A stretch of DNA of 64,000 bases from Clostridia bacterium (GTDB taxonomy: Bacteria > Bacillota > Clostridia > Oscillospirales > Acutalibacteraceae), in NCBI GenBank assembly GCA_017626295.1, contig JAGAJB010000003.1, positions 1 to 64,000 on the forward strand, in the 5' to 3' direction. A program made the translations under genes and the position numbers. The notes below the pieces were generated by a model that was not told where the DNA came from, searched no databases, and worked only from the letters and a program-made list of their open reading frames with translations. Position 1 is the stretch's first letter; every line of letters begins with the position of its first letter. Positions 12,002-38,128 of the stretch are shown here, in pieces.

Positions 12002-13059
12002 AACGTACTCCAGAAAAATTCGTATGGTAAAAAGTCACTACCGCGTAATCTGTATAAAAATAACCCTATACAAAGAACATAAACTGCTGCATTTATTATT
12101 TTTTTGGGTTCTTCTTTAAATGTTGAAATTGTGTTTGGAAGAAGTAATAATTGACCAAAAATAAAATAGAAACTGATTCGCTCTGACGCCTGTGCACCTA
12201 TATAGCGCATAATGTAACTTATCATTCCTAATATAGTTATAAACATAATTGCCGATTGTGTTTTATCTTGTCTTTCATATCTAACTTCTCTGTTATATAG
12301 CATTGCAAAAACAATAATAAGAACATAAATTGCCGTTGCTATAAAACCGCCTGAGTCAATAGATTGTGAATAATCTGTTTCAAAAATCTCATTGGCAACT
12401 GTTATAATTTTGTCAGCATTTGCAAAAACAATAATCGAACCCAAACAAAGCAAGCACAAATTCCACCATCTGTATGCAAGCAAGGAAATAAAATAAACCG
12501 CTATAAACAGAAAAGCTGTTCTGTGGAACTGGGCTGCAAGTATAACAACAAAAAGAAAAGGTACAAATTTTTTCTTCTTAACAAATTCAAAAGACAAGAT
12601 ACACAAACTCATAGCAATCGATTGCCGCATACCTTGCATTTCAAATTGCATAAGACCAAGTGTTATGTACATCACCACACTCATTACAACATTATCTGAG
12701 TTTTTATATATACAATAAAAAATACAAATAACGTATATTGCAGAAGATATAACAATTATCCATTGGGGTGACGTAAAAATTCTTGAAAGACAAAACAGGA
12801 AGAACTGAAAACCGGCTTCTACATAATCACTTCTGTAATATTCAATCCAAGAGTTTGATACAATTGCACGATTCATCATGTTATAGTAATTCGCAGTATC
12901 AGTACTTCCGATAAATCTACTTCTAAGTCCCATAAACAATATGAGCACTATTCCACATAAAATAAGATATTTGCGTTTTCTTTTATCCACTTCATTCATT
13001 CGCGGAAAGAAAATGCTCAGCACTAACGGTGCTATTGCCACTAAAGCATAAATAATCAT
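11998..13059 (-). CDS. EpsG-family membrane protein, probable repeat-unit polymerase
   Basis: A 353-residue protein with about ten hydrophobic segments. FMGLRSRFIGSTDTANYYNM, MQGMRQSIAMSLC and QFHRTAF are the conserved blocks of the EpsG family, which take the place of Wzy in many Gram-positive exopolysaccharide loci. It would link repeat units outside the membrane after flipping by the Wzx-like protein. It directly follows one glycosyltransferase gene (stop and start adjacent) and overlaps the next by 4 bases. Confidence 0.85.
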   Translation of the reverse strand: MIIYALVAIAPLVLSIFFPRMNEVDKRKRKYLILCGIVLILFMGLRSRFIGSTDTANYYNMMNRAIVSNSWIEYYRSDYVEAGFQFFLFCLSRIFTSPQWIIVISSAIYVICIFYCIYKNSDNVVMSVVMYITLGLMQFEMQGMRQSIAMSLCILSFEFVKKKKFVPFLFVVILAAQFHRTAFLFIAVYFISLLAYRWWNLCLLCLGSIIVFANADKIITVANEIFETDYSQSIDSGGFIATAIYVLIIVFAMLYNREVRYERQDKTQSAIMFITILGMISYIMRYIGAQASERISFYFIFGQLLLLPNTISTFKEEPKKIINAAVYVLCIGLFLYRLRGSDFLPYEFFWSTL

Positions 13060-34222: not shown

Positions 34223-35338
34223 TCAGCCTATATTTTCATTTTTTAATCTCATGGGAATAATTAAGAAAATGAAACTGTCACCTTCTATGGGTCTGATAAT
34301 AATAGGTGAAACAGGACTTGAAAGTTCAATTTTAACTTCGTCAACGTCAACTGTTCTCAAGCAGTCTGTAAGATATGTGTTGTTAAAGCCGATTTCAACT
34401 CTTTTTCCTTCAATTGAAGCAGGAATTTTATCGTTAGCAGCACCGAGAGAAGTTGCACTTGAAACTCTTATTGTATTATCATCAAAAACACAACGGATAG
34501 GACTTTTAATTTTACTTGTAATAAGAAGTGAAGTTCTTTCAACGCTGTCAAGGATAAGTTTAAGGTTAACTCTTGCTTTTGTTGAACTTTCGGCGGGAAT
34601 AGCATTCTTATAATTAAAGAATTCACCTTCTAAAAGGCGGGAAATTATTCTGTAATTACCGATTTCAAAAAGAATAAACTTCTTGCCGATGGAGAAAGTA
34701 ACGTTTTCATCGTCATTATCAGCAAGTTTAATAACTTCTGAAAGAGTTTTTGCAGGAACGACAAATGTCATGTTATCGCCTGAGTATTCAATTACTTCGT
34801 TTCTTATGGCAAGACGGAAACCGTCACAGGAAATAAGTCTTAAATTTTTGTTTTCAACTTCAAATTTAATGCCTTTGTGAACGGGTTTAATATCCTGTAC
34901 TGCAACTGCGAAGATAGTTTGCTTAACCATATCGCGTAAAACATTTTGTTTAATTGCAAAGGGAAGTCCGCCTGAAACAGTGGGAAGTTCAGGATAATCG
35001 TTTGCAGGAATTCCTACAAGTGAAAATTCAGATTCGCCTGATGAAATTTTGCATAGATTATGAGAGTCAACGTTGATTGTAACGGAAGCAGCAGGTAATC
35101 TTCTTAAAATATCACAAAGAAGTCTTGCGTTAAGAACAATACTGCCTTCTGTTTCTGTTGAGCAGTCGATAGAAGTTGTAATACCTACCTCAAGGTCGTA
35201 ACCTGTGAGAGTAAGTCTGGAATTTTTAGCCTGCATGAAGATACCTTCAGTAGCAGGAATTGTACTTTTTTGAGGAACACCTCTTTGGACGATATTGCAG
35301 GCTTCTGCAAGAATAGATGTGTTACAGGTAAATTTCAT
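34223..35338 (-). CDS. dnaN: DNA polymerase III beta subunit (sliding clamp)
   Basis: A 371-residue clamp with three repeated domains. Recognisable blocks are ATEGIFMQA, TGYDLEVGITTSI, ANDYPELP and the C-terminal PIRPIEGDSFIFLIIPMR-like end (residues about 350-367). It tethers DNA polymerase III to DNA. A GGGAGG site precedes the ATG. It follows dnaA after a 259-base AT-rich region that may be part of the origin. Confidence 0.96.
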   Translation of the reverse strand: MKFTCNTSILAEACNIVQRGVPQKSTIPATEGIFMQAKNSRLTLTGYDLEVGITTSIDCSTETEGSIVLNARLLCDILRRLPAASVTINVDSHNLCKISSGESEFSLVGIPANDYPELPTVSGGLPFAIKQNVLRDMVKQTIFAVAVQDIKPVHKGIKFEVENKNLRLISCDGFRLAIRNEVIEYSGDNMTFVVPAKTLSEVIKLADNDDENVTFSIGKKFILFEIGNYRIISRLLEGEFFNYKNAIPAESSTKARVNLKLILDSVERTSLLITSKIKSPIRCVFDDNTIRVSSATSLGAANDKIPASIEGKRVEIGFNNTYLTDCLRTVDVDEVKIELSSPVSPIIIRPIEGDSFIFLIIPMRLKNENIG

Positions 35339-35597
35339 AATTTAACCTCCCGATGTGGAATAAAATAAATTTTTATGTCAAAAATAATATATTAAACAGT
35401 AGTCTTAGTAGTGTCTGTTCAAATTGTATAAAAGTGGCACGCAGGTTGATTTTACTGGTGTTGTCATATTTAATCTCTTTGTTTAAAAAATGTTTAAATA
35501 TGTCAGTAGATTTTTATGAATAAAGTGCAGTGTTAAAATTGTTTATAACTCTTTGAACATCTGTGTTTAAATTGTAGAAAGATTGCGTGCTGTAGAG
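35339..35597. other. dnaA-dnaN intergenic region, candidate part of oriC
   Basis: A 259-base AT-rich region without a gene. No canonical DnaA box (TTATCCACA) is seen on either strand, only degenerate forms. Instead the 12-base word TGTTNAAATTGT occurs three times in the same orientation: 35416-35427 (N=C), 35531-35542 (N=A) and 35564-35575 (N=T). Two partial copies (TGTTTAAA) lie at 35480 and 35491. The outer copies sit in a longer imperfect repeat that also includes a GCGTGC/GCACGC word. This pattern could be a lineage-specific initiator binding array. Confidence 0.55.
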
Positions 35598-36953
35598 TTA
35601 TTCATTTCTCTCGTCTTTAATACTTTTCATAATATCGTAGACGGTGCTCTTAAGTTGGGGGTTGTCCTCCATTTTGCTTTCAGATGCCTCAATTGAGTAA
35701 ATAACCGTCGAGTGTTTTTTACCGCCGAACTGAGCACCTATTTCCTCGTAAGTGAGGTTTGTTACCTCTCTCATTATATACATTGCAAACTGTCTTGCGT
35801 TGGAAATTTCCGCCTTTTTCTTTTCTGAACGTATATCATCAGAAGAGACACCGAATGCTTTAGCGACCTTATCAATAATATTATTTATTGTAACCTCCGT
35901 GGGTTGAGCATAATAGATAATATCTTTTATAATATCGTTTGCAACGCCTATTGTGGGCGGATTACCGTCAATGGAATAAACCGCGTAAAGTTTATTTACA
36001 ACGCCCTCAATCTGACGAACATTATTTTTAAGTCTTTCTGCAATAAATTCAACAACATCATCAGGTATATTCATTTCAAATGCCTGTGCTTTTCGACGGA
36101 TGATAGCAATTCTTGTTTCAAGCATAGGCGGTTGAATATCAGCAAGAAGTCCTTGAACGAATCTGCTGCGAAGTCTTTCTTCAAGTGTCGGAATATCTTT
36201 CGGAGGACGGTCAGATGTGAGAACAATTTGTTTTCCCTGGTTTATAAGAGCCTCAAAAGTATAGAAAAATTCTTCCTGTGCAACGCTTGTTTTACCGATG
36301 AACTGAATATCGTCCATAAGTAAAATATCTGCATTCCTGTATTTATTATGAAATTCACCCATATTTTTTTCACCCATATGGTTTATCATTTCATTAAGGA
36401 AGTTTTCACCGCTTGTAAAAAGAATATTCATTCCCGGACGGTTGTGTTTAAGTTCAGCCCTTATTGCTTTAAGAAGATGAGTTTTGCCGAGACCCGATTC
36501 GCCGTATATAAACAACGGATTATGTACACTGCCGGGATTATTTGTAACGGCAACCGCCGCAACGTATGCAAACTGGTTTGTGGAACCTACAATAAAGTTA
36601 CTGAATGTGGGTTCAAAACCTTTATGGTCAATATCTCTGCTCATAGGAGTCTGAACAGGTGTCGCTGAAGCGTCCTGAGCGATTTTTTCCTGCATTTCAT
36701 TTACTTGCTCGTCCACGGTAATTCTGACATTTATATCAAAGCCGAGAACAGCGGTAGCCGCATTCTGAATTTCGAAAGTAAAACGCCTGTCAATAATATT
36801 CTTTTTAAATTCTGAAGAAGTTTCAAGCACAAGGCAGTCGTCGTCAAAAGAAACTGGGACTAATGTTTTAATCCAGGTTGACATAACTGCTGTTGAAACA
36901 GAACCGGTGAGTTCCTGCAAAACTGCTGCCCACAGTTCATAAATGTTATCCAA
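35598..36953 (-). CDS. dnaA: Chromosomal replication initiator DnaA
   Basis: A 451-residue AAA+ initiator. Walker A is YGESGLGKTHLLKAI, Walker B ILLMDDIQF, and sensor/arginine-finger regions follow. The C-terminal DNA-binding helix reads FGGKKHSTVIYS; in most DnaA proteins it is GGRDHTTVxHA, so the Asp that contacts the DnaA box is Lys and one Thr is Ser. The frame opens at a GTG (36962), but the TTG at 36953 aligns with the start of B. subtilis DnaA (MENILDLW versus MDNIYELW) and is correctly spaced from GGGGTG. It is the first gene of the left-going replication cluster. Confidence 0.96.
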   Translation of the reverse strand: MDNIYELWAAVLQELTGSVSTAVMSTWIKTLVPVSFDDDCLVLETSSEFKKNIIDRRFTFEIQNAATAVLGFDINVRITVDEQVNEMQEKIAQDASATPVQTPMSRDIDHKGFEPTFSNFIVGSTNQFAYVAAVAVTNNPGSVHNPLFIYGESGLGKTHLLKAIRAELKHNRPGMNILFTSGENFLNEMINHMGEKNMGEFHNKYRNADILLMDDIQFIGKTSVAQEEFFYTFEALINQGKQIVLTSDRPPKDIPTLEERLRSRFVQGLLADIQPPMLETRIAIIRRKAQAFEMNIPDDVVEFIAERLKNNVRQIEGVVNKLYAVYSIDGNPPTIGVANDIIKDIIYYAQPTEVTINNIIDKVAKAFGVSSDDIRSEKKKAEISNARQFAMYIMREVTNLTYEEIGAQFGGKKHSTVIYSIEASESKMEDNPQLKSTVYDIMKSIKDERNE

Positions 36954-37015
36954 TAAATTCACCCCAAAATTTTACAATAATATGTATATAAAATAAACAA
37001 TATATATGCCATTAA

Positions 37016-37044
37016 ATTATAGCATACAAGTGTTTTTATTTCAA
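37016..37044 (-). promoter_or_regulatory. Sigma-A promoter of dnaA
   Basis: Minus strand: TTGAAA (37044-37039), 17-base spacer, TATAAT (37021-37016). The start would be near 37009, about 55 bases before the TTG start codon. Confidence 0.82.
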
Positions 37045-37108
37045 TATAATTCATTAAATAACTGACAAAAAATGTTCAAAAATTAAGGAAAATTTCATTA
37101 TTACCGTA

Positions 37109-37137
37109 TTGCATTTTACAAACGTATACTGTAATAT
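37109..37137 (+). promoter_or_regulatory. Probable promoter of the RING-like gene
   Basis: TTGCAT (37109-37114), 17-base spacer, TAATAT (37132-37137). Confidence 0.55.
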
Positions 37138-37198
37138 TTAAAGTAGAAAAATAAAACTATAATTTGTTAATAAAAAACAATAAAAGAAAGAGATTAAA

Positions 37199-38128
37199 AT
37201 GGATTTTAAAAAGTATATTTGCCCTGTTTGTACTAAGCAATTTAATGAAAATGATGATGTTGTTGTGTGTCCCGAATGCGGTACTCCTCATCACAGAGAG
37301 TGTTATAATAATTTAGGAAAATGTTTTAATGAAACTACGCACGGAACAAATGAATCGGTTGAGTTTACATTTAAAAACACAGTACTTCCGGAAGAAAATT
37401 TAAATAACACAACAGATGAAATTCCCGATGAAATAAAAGAAAACGAGTCCTTTAAAAAAATAGTTGAAGAAATTCCTAATTTTATAAAATTGAGCCCTGC
37501 TCAAAATGCTCTTATTGATGGAAAACACGCTTATCTTTACGAACTTGCAATAGGTAAAAATAAAGAATACTATATACCCAGATTTATGTTAATGAATAAT
37601 TTAAAAAAGGGTATTTCCTGGAATTTTTTCGCATTTTTAACTCCTCTTGCCTGGACGTTATACCGTAAGATGTATAAGTTTTCTGCTTTGGTTTTAGCAA
37701 TGTATGTTCTGATTTTCGGTTTAACAGGTTTTTATATTGCATCAAATGAAGAATTTATAGATTTAAATATTGCCTGTGCCCAGGAAGACCCTAATTATAT
37801 GTCAAATATTCTGATTTACGATTCCGGTTCCGGTGACGTTACATTAACTGTAAAACAACAGGAACTTATGGAAGTTATGAATAATATGACAGTTCCTTTA
37901 TACGTAAGTATTATTTCAAGCGTTCTTCCTTTCGTTTTACGAATTTATTTAGGTCTTTTTGCTAACAAAAAGTATATGCAAAAGATAAAGAAGAATATAG
38001 AAAAAGCCGAAAAAAAAGGCTTGCAAGGTGATAACCTTAAAAAGTATCTTTATAAGAAATACGGCACTTTACCGCTGATTTTAGCAGGTATTATAGGATT
38101 TTTTGAACTGTTTTCTATTTATTACTGA
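37199..38128 (+). CDS. Prokaryotic RING-finger-like membrane protein (DUF2628-like)
   Basis: A 309-residue protein. Residues 8-42 hold a metal-binding CPVC...CPECGTPHHRECY cluster of the prokaryotic RING family 1 type. After an acidic linker, the C-terminal half has a WNFFAFLTPLAWTLYRKMYKFSA block and further hydrophobic segments, like DUF2628 membrane proteins. It is the first rightward gene from the origin. The ribosome site (AGAAAGAG) is weak. Function is unknown; ubiquitin ligase activity should not be assumed for this family. Confidence 0.75.
   Translation: MDFKKYICPVCTKQFNENDDVVVCPECGTPHHRECYNNLGKCFNETTHGTNESVEFTFKNTVLPEENLNNTTDEIPDEIKENESFKKIVEEIPNFIKLSPAQNALIDGKHAYLYELAIGKNKEYYIPRFMLMNNLKKGISWNFFAFLTPLAWTLYRKMYKFSALVLAMYVLIFGLTGFYIASNEEFIDLNIACAQEDPNYMSNILIYDSGSGDVTLTVKQQELMEVMNNMTVPLYVSIISSVLPFVLRIYLGLFANKKYMQKIKKNIEKAEKKGLQGDNLKKYLYKKYGTLPLILAGIIGFFELFSIYY

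Follow-up and report, generated by a model that had tools for sequence, protein, structure and literature searches.

It is known that DnaA of E. coli reads a box of the type TTWTNCACA, in which C at position 6 belongs to the consensus and C at position 5 is preferred (PMC5835720). Boxes with C5 are bound best by the E. coli protein, and among TTTT boxes far better than those with other bases (PMC5835720). Residue 433 is among the base-contacting residues of DnaA (PMC7561715, PMC5043019), and the contacts of D433 and L438 have been assigned to position 7 of the box (PMC8235120). In B. subtilis and many other bacteria the BUS lies in the dnaA-dnaN gap and is made up of paired co-oriented boxes, a short spacer, DnaA-trios and an AT-rich stretch (PMC8287927, PMC10721633). 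A diverged box, ACCTACCAC, has been described for Thermotoga maritima (PMC10316083), and in the epsilonproteobacteria, whose box has a TTCAC core, the box and residues of helix 5 are both known to have changed in a lineage-specific way (PMC5043019). In the open-licence literature, which leaves most subscription papers outside, no report was found of a replaced Asp433 with a matching box, or of the repetition of such a change in a second clade.

The present study deals with the dnaA region of the window, by which we mean the whole stretch of 64,000 nucleotides that was analysed. Its dnaA-dnaN gap is read here as an ordinary BUS-type origin in which, as predicted from sequence, the specificity of the initiator and that of its box have both been switched at box positions 5-6, and we give this reading a probability of about three in four. 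dnaA (35598..36962, minus strand) codes for 454 amino acids with a GTG start as called, TTG at codon 4 being an alternative. Its product contains the DnaA_N, AAA+ Bac_DnaA and Bac_DnaA_C domains (35.3, 197.9 and 90.3 bits, all above the Pfam cut-off) and is thus a member of the DnaA family by domain content. The start is uncertain, as the GTG sits within GGGGTGAATTTATTG (36951-36962), and this sequence could be the ribosome-binding site of a start at the codon-4 TTG. dnaA adjoins dnaN (34223..35338, minus), which codes for the sliding clamp with three DNA_pol3_beta domains and forms the border of the origin. The first-pass annotation had named the GC-skew switch as a check; within the 64-kb window the skew has opposite signs in the 32-36 kb bin and in the 36-40 kb bin, in an origin-like manner. 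After dnaA the same strand carries dnaN, a small S4-domain-like ORF, recF, a RemA-like gene (25.6 bits, slightly below the Pfam cut-off of 26), gyrB and gyrA, the names of recF, gyrB, gyrA and the S4 ORF being assigned by reading the translations. rpmH is the usual neighbour of dnaA in Firmicutes. The gene adjacent to dnaA here (37199-38128, plus strand, divergent) is not rpmH; its protein matches Prok-RING_1, a prokaryotic RING finger (77.9 bits), and shows membrane segments by eye.

The gap itself (35339..35597, minus strand, 259 bp) contains boxes, spacer, trios and an AT-rich stretch. It holds nine NTWTNNACA sites on the dnaA strand and one on the opposite strand, and six of its boxes form three directly abutting pairs. 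Counted from dnaA, and on the minus strand unless stated, the first pair consists of the variant boxes CTTTCTACA (35573..35581) and ATTTAAACA (35564..35572), and the second of TTATAAACA (35540..35548) and ATTTTAACA (35531..35539), with the opposite-strand variant box CTTTGAACA (35551..35559, plus) lying between them. Single variant boxes ATTTAAACA (35491..35499) and TTTTAAACA (35480..35488) come next. The remaining pair is formed by the BUS distal box TTTTATACA (35425..35433) and the BUS proximal box ATTTGAACA (35416..35424), followed by the spacer GACA (35412..35415) between box and trios and by the DnaA-trio run CTA CTA AGA CTA CTG of the dnaA strand (35397..35411), which reads 3'-GAT GAT TCT GAT GAC-5' on the other strand; the trios were assigned by the rule given in PMC8287927. 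The order is therefore TTTTATACA directly followed by ATTTGAACA, then GACA, CTACTAAGACTACTG and TTTAATATATTATTTTT. In the third trio, AGA as read on the dnaA strand, the middle base of the trio strand is C; one close relative (L038) shares this, the run being clean in several others. The BUS rule asks for three or more NAN trios no farther than 16 bp from one or two boxes. Judged by eye, the gap agrees with it only if the variant boxes (the pair at 35416-35433) are admitted, and the first uninterrupted series of three NAN starts with the fourth trio, at a distance of 13 bp from the box. The AT-rich stretch past the trios (35357..35396), delimited by eye, is likely to be the unwinding region; a box-like site, TTTTTGACA, whose meaning is uncertain, lies beyond the trios at 35376..35384. 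It was observed that the gaps of two relatives are long (461 bp in L035 and 577 bp in L039, about 255 bp in near relatives) and that an additional block, in which GGAAACCC ... GGGTTTCC form inverted repeats, separates dnaA from the boxes in them; it is possibly a small mobile or repeat element.

The absence of canonical boxes from the gaps flanking dnaA, reported in the first-pass annotation, was borne out, as TTATCCACA does not occur at 0 or 1 mismatch anywhere in 35339-37198. The annotation was also right about the altered signature of the recognition helix. DnaA chains of E. coli (1j1v) and B. subtilis (8btg) carry GGRDHTTV, and in the alignment to them the window DnaA carries GGKKHSTV (residues 413-420; 35703..35726, minus). 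Instead of the canonical Asp433 there is a lysine, Lys416 of the window protein (35715-35717, minus), and the mapped E. coli numbering is used from here on. Of the Asp and the Thr that were named there as changed box-reading residues, it is the former whose replacement, Lys433, tracks the box type; Ser435 is ordinary and is found in 27 of the 32 counted Asp433 origins of the family. Ser435 as the driver was ruled out: gaps with Asp433 and Ser435 keep CC at 52 and CA at 65 of 184 sites, and the retention of these boxes shows that residue 435 does not drive the switch.

For the comparison, searches for DnaA covered 60 family genomes (59 matched) and 22 of the window genus (21 matched), a few of the former and some of the latter by weak AAA+ matches only; the best 80 of 543 genome-contig loci were kept. 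The genus in which a second Lys433 clade was found, and its order, were sampled with 58 genomes each (48 and 56 matched), and further loci were added. The 292 loci gave 260 readable dnaA ends, 221 of those with a dnaN start, and 198 distinct dnaA-dnaN gaps of 90-1100 bp were counted, L293-L298 entering no count. Sites were counted on both strands as TTWTNNACA with positions 5 and 6 free, against dinucleotide shuffles; the outer letters being fixed, boxes that deviate there are missed. Unconstrained motif EM was rejected because on the Asp sets it ended up modelling base composition, and thresholded matrices with a per-gap background were used in its place. The BUS finder was usable (score at least 10) in 92 of the 198 gaps (Asp 40/90, Lys 32/56, His 10/16, Asn 8/26, Ser 2/3, Thr 0/7) and placed the distal box one base off for L001, L039 and L040.

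Lys433 was found in two clades. In the window genus it is present in 17 of the 19 genomes with a readable domain IV (window included), the other two having Asn433 (L046, L047). The second clade is a distant genus (g118, of family f42). Outside the window genus 47 family gaps were counted; Asp433 goes with 32 of these, and His, Asn or Ser with the remainder. A codon-pattern search for Lys433 matched 26 of 391 genomes of the class at 27 places, with DnaA at seven of these, namely in the window genome and six genomes of the distant genus; in the order 1 of 297 genomes matched, the window genome itself. Of 348 genomes from the phylum to which an Enterococcus genome belongs, 5 matched, none with DnaA similarity, and eight single genomes gave no match. 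The pattern misses cases, genome G302 of the class sample being unmatched although its locus L198 has Lys433, so these counts are not a firm measure of how rare Lys433 is.

The residue at 433 and the middle of the box were found to vary together. CC or CA occupies positions 5-6 in 194 of 302 sites of Asp433 origins and in 3 of 225 sites of Lys433 origins, in which GA and AA dominate (135 of 225, giving TRAAC at positions 4-8). The 302 sites of the 90 Asp433 gaps compare with 38.5 expected, and here CC was found 107 times (1.1 expected), CA 87 (2.5), GA 6 (2.0) and AA 28 (6.1), with 29 TA. In the 56 Lys433 gaps 30.8 sites were expected, and the 225 found include CC 1 (0.4 expected), CA 2 (1.7), GA 97 (2.3), AA 38 (4.0), AT 25 (2.2) and CT 17 (0.9), besides 10 GC and 7 AC. 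His433 gaps (16, with 60 sites) have CC 23, CA 20 and TA 11; Asn433 gaps (26, with 106 sites) have CA 29, TA 21, TC 14 and CC 12; Ser/Thr433 gaps (10, two of them outside the second Lys433 genus, with 52 sites) have GA 18, AA 10, CA 2 and no CC. A at position 6 was ruled out as a new feature, because many Asp433 origins have boxes of the A6 form (TTWTNAACA) too.

The same shift is seen in both Lys433 clades. The window genus (17 gaps, 67 sites) has AA 22, GA 18, CT 10, CC 1 and CA 1, and the second clade (39 gaps, 158 sites) has GA 79, AT 23, AA 16, CA 1 and no CC. In TTWT-type sites a purine stands at position 5 in 42 of 67 and 143 of 158 sites, respectively. C at position 6, as in canonical TTWTNCACA, is found in only 3 of the 67 sites of the window genus. 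The BUS slots have changed as well: in the second clade they read TTTTGAACA directly followed by ATTTGAACA, and in the window genus position 5 of the BUS pair is often C or T with T or G at position 6, C6 being found in 0 of 17 for each box. The rule is thus one of positions 5 and 6 jointly, a loss of C-C and C-A. The Asn433 origin L047 of the window genus has TTTTCCACA, TTTTCAACA twice and TTATCAACA alongside TTTTGAACA and TTATGAACA; in L046, the second Asn433 origin, there is a single site of this kind, TTTTAGACA. In the 350 bp upstream of dnaA, 16 origins of the window genus have GA or AA 11 times (2.2 expected), AT or CT 13 times (1.4) and CC or CA 3 times (0.7), versus 5 (2.1), 0 (1.0) and 10 (0.7) in 31 Asp433 origins of the family; hardly any sites were found there in 38 origins of the second clade.

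It could be argued that the repeated sites are targets of another protein, such as a regulator of dnaA and dnaN, and that DnaA uses something else. One site, TTTTGAACA at 37073..37081 (minus), does lie upstream of dnaA in a repressor-like placement. However, the sites fill the two box slots by the trios with the 4-nt spacer, have the TTWT and ACA ends that mark DnaA boxes and covary with residue 433 of DnaA itself, and we consider this explanation very improbable. Taking the sites as DnaA boxes, a 12-mer repeated three times at the origin, to which the first-pass annotation had drawn attention, can be placed. Exact same-strand copies of TGTTNAAATTGT do lie at 35416, 35531 and 35564, and when the 259-bp gap was shuffled 20,000 times with its dinucleotides kept, two or more copies never occurred; a fourth exact copy in the window is far off at 12121, and across the whole window 1-mismatch copies are not enriched (8 found, 5.7 expected). 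On the dnaA strand the 12-mer, ACAATTTNAACA, is the terminal ACA of one 9-mer box together with the next abutting box (ATTTNAACA), and its copies lie at the junctions of TTTTATACA with ATTTGAACA, TTATAAACA with ATTTTAACA and CTTTCTACA with ATTTAAACA. It is exact in 6 of the 17 Lys433 origins of the window genus (window included), in 0 of 39 of the second clade and in 1 of 90 Asp433 origins. The copies are genuine, but the 12-mer as a unit or a new element was ruled out in favour of box-pair junctions. A lack of conservation in related genomes, which the first-pass annotation had named as a counter-argument, applies in part: the 12-mer is poorly conserved, whereas the 9-mer inside it is shared. 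As judged from the origins compared, the shared unit is the 9-mer box TTWTRAACA with RT and CT variants at positions 5-6.

A second possibility is that AT-rich origins lost C by mutation bias and that Lys433 is coincidental. The gaps of the window genus are indeed AT-rich (median GC 0.26 against 0.35 in the Asp433 gaps of the family), and A6 boxes are common in Asp433 relatives. However, the dinucleotide shuffles already allow for composition, the rise of G at position 5 (the excess of GA given above) is unlike a drift towards AT, and the shift recurs in the second clade. Asp433 gaps with GC of at most 34% retain C5 in 32 of 58 sites in the family and in 59 of 108 elsewhere. A matrix for which the second Lys clade and the non-family Asp433 gaps served as training sets was applied to the window genus and the Asp433 gaps of the family and separated them with an AUC of 0.985, placing 15 of 17 Lys433 gaps (all except L037 and L040) and 32 of 32 Asp433 gaps on the correct side of zero. 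With 60 sets of shuffled test gaps the AUC had a mean of 0.57 and a maximum of 0.74. Shuffled gaps of the window genus fell on the Lys side in 9 of 17 cases on average and at most in 13, a point in favour of drift, and the AUC is for this reason the stronger figure. Drift of composition is, on this evidence, improbable, and a joint switch of initiator and box remains the preferred reading.

Box types were defined after the counts had been seen, as old (CC, CA) and new (GA, AA, AT, GT, CT, CG), and 169 rows were compared, 29 with no or tied sites being left out. In the 128 Lys433 and Asp433 origins, set on a tree built without the recognition helix, 55 of 56 Lys433 origins are of the new type and 66 of 72 Asp433 origins of the old type. 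When Lys, Ser and Thr are set against Asp, Asn and His the figures are 65 of 66 and 96 of 103, with three independent pairs. The tree-aware test of Lys against Asp has two independent pairs, mostly in the expected direction in 200 pairings, and with only two independent Lys origins found it cannot reach significance. Relatives with the same helix and normal boxes, named in the first-pass annotation as evidence that would speak against it, occur only as exceptions to these post hoc types: among Lys433 gaps L040 has TTTTCAACA and L037 one TTTTCCACA. Six Asp433 gaps lean the other way (L074, L079, L097, L133, L265, L285). Counted by clades, C or T predominates at position 5 in 14 of the 15 Asp, His or Asn clades that have sites (the other being a tie), and four separately arising Lys, Ser or Thr clades lean to A/G, two of which, Ser433 (L021) and Thr433 (L119), rest on four sites each; Fisher p is 0.0003 with the tie left out and the grouping chosen post hoc. 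Five Ser/Thr clades that lie inside the second Lys clade, four with a purine majority and one tied, do not enter this count.

Several observations on residue 433 stand by themselves. His433, in some cases with Tyr434, makes up six clades on the tree and accompanies C/T at position 5 (L003, L004, L006, L009, L018, L260, L261, L273 and L277 in the family; L243, L246-L249 and L251; L129), and these clades are a possible second set of natural specificity variants. Ser or Thr433 is found in some species of the second Lys433 genus (L186, L187, L189, L192-L194, L200, L236). One genome of that genus also has a diverged second DnaA-like match (L235; G472, contig 5) with 38% identity, an E value of 1.3e-69 and an open frame of 625 amino acids.

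The switch may be real and yet be due to other changes in domain IV, such as Lys399 with its basic-loop neighbours or helix-5 residues 438-439, with residue 433 hitchhiking. The window genus has K399, K400, E402 and N405, at which most Asp433 rows of the family differ (399 is K in 17 of 17 rows of the genus and R in 22 of 32 of the Asp433 rows), and PMC5043019 implicates 435 and 438-439 in the change of the epsilonproteobacterial box. Against this, the second Lys433 clade has R at 399 in all but one of its 39 rows, and the separate Ser433 and Thr433 rows also lean to purine. In four DnaA columns at least 85% of each Lys clade has the same residue, one that no more than 25% of the remaining 113 rows carry; 433 is the only one of them in domain IV, and its residue is found in 0% elsewhere. 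In a plain ranking of columns by how well they predict box type, 433 came third (0.75), after two AAA+ columns (window residues 183 and 165), and in the cluster-weighted ranking it fell outside the top 12; the weights came from clusters at 50% identity, where single linkage gave 17, one of them with 65 rows. Hitchhiking of 433 is unlikely, though less so than drift, and the switch is more probably due to residue 433 itself.

Co-evolution of DnaA and its box in this lineage, which the first-pass annotation had inferred, is well supported by the covariation and by its repetition in a distant clade, the pattern resting on only two Lys origins; the unit that changes would be the 9-mer, and it is 433 and not 435 that tracks it. 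Lys433 DnaA would bind boxes of the type TTWT-R-A-ACA, often paired, and also those with RT or CT at positions 5-6, and would no longer use the CC/CA boxes of its Asp433 relatives. The head-to-tail BUS pair would load DnaA onto the adjacent trios, and DnaA on the trios would open the AT-rich stretch. On general grounds of protein-DNA chemistry, a contact at the tip of the helix may have been swapped, with Asp accepting a hydrogen bond from cytosine and Lys donating one to a purine. The assignment of the D433 contact to position 7 counts against this swap, because position 7 stays A here (PMC8235120). The C5 preference of E. coli DnaA fits with the pairing of Asp433 and C5 (PMC5835720). A broader and more tentative proposal, to which we give slightly less than even odds, is a one-residue code in which 433 is predicted to read the middle of the box and the whole origin has been rewritten to follow it, at least twice for Lys. 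Asp would go with C5, His and Asn with C/T, and Lys, Ser and Thr with A/G. If so, the initiator of a Lys lineage would not recognize a standard origin, and a standard initiator would not recognize that of a Lys lineage.

By parsimony on one quick tree, Lys433 of the window genus lies within Asn433 relatives (five rows; CA in 10 of 21 sites), and these within His433 and Asp433. It is probable, as far as that tree can be followed, that A6 came first, since A6 boxes are common in Asp433 relatives, and that the change to Lys then accompanied the loss of C5-C6. The A6 boxes and the Asn433 relatives could be the intermediates. The locus offers a direct test case of how an initiator shifts its specificity when many sites must follow. 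It is also a candidate orthogonal initiator-origin pair, and it may provide an improved box model for the prediction of origins in Lys433 lineages.

Compared with the known systems, the gap resembles the BUS of B. subtilis and many other bacteria in all its parts and in its place, but its boxes deviate at positions 5-6 and the trio strand of its third trio is C in the middle (PMC8287927, PMC10721633). It shares with T. maritima the divergence of the box; there the entire box differs, whereas here the change is confined to the middle, between an unaltered TTWT and ACA (PMC10316083). The E. coli-type box has the same outer letters of the 9-mer, but it has C6 in its consensus and prefers C5, while in the window genus C6 is rare and a purine is commoner at position 5 of TTWT sites (PMC5835720). 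The epsilonproteobacteria are similar in that helix-5 residues and the consensus of the box have both changed in that lineage (PMC5043019). Their TTCAC at positions 4-8 is found in just 3 of the 225 TTWTNNACA sites of Lys433 origins. In them the 433-434 dyad is reported to be highly conserved and the change is assigned to 435 and 438-439, whereas here 433 itself is replaced and it is positions 5-6 of the box that change (PMC5043019).
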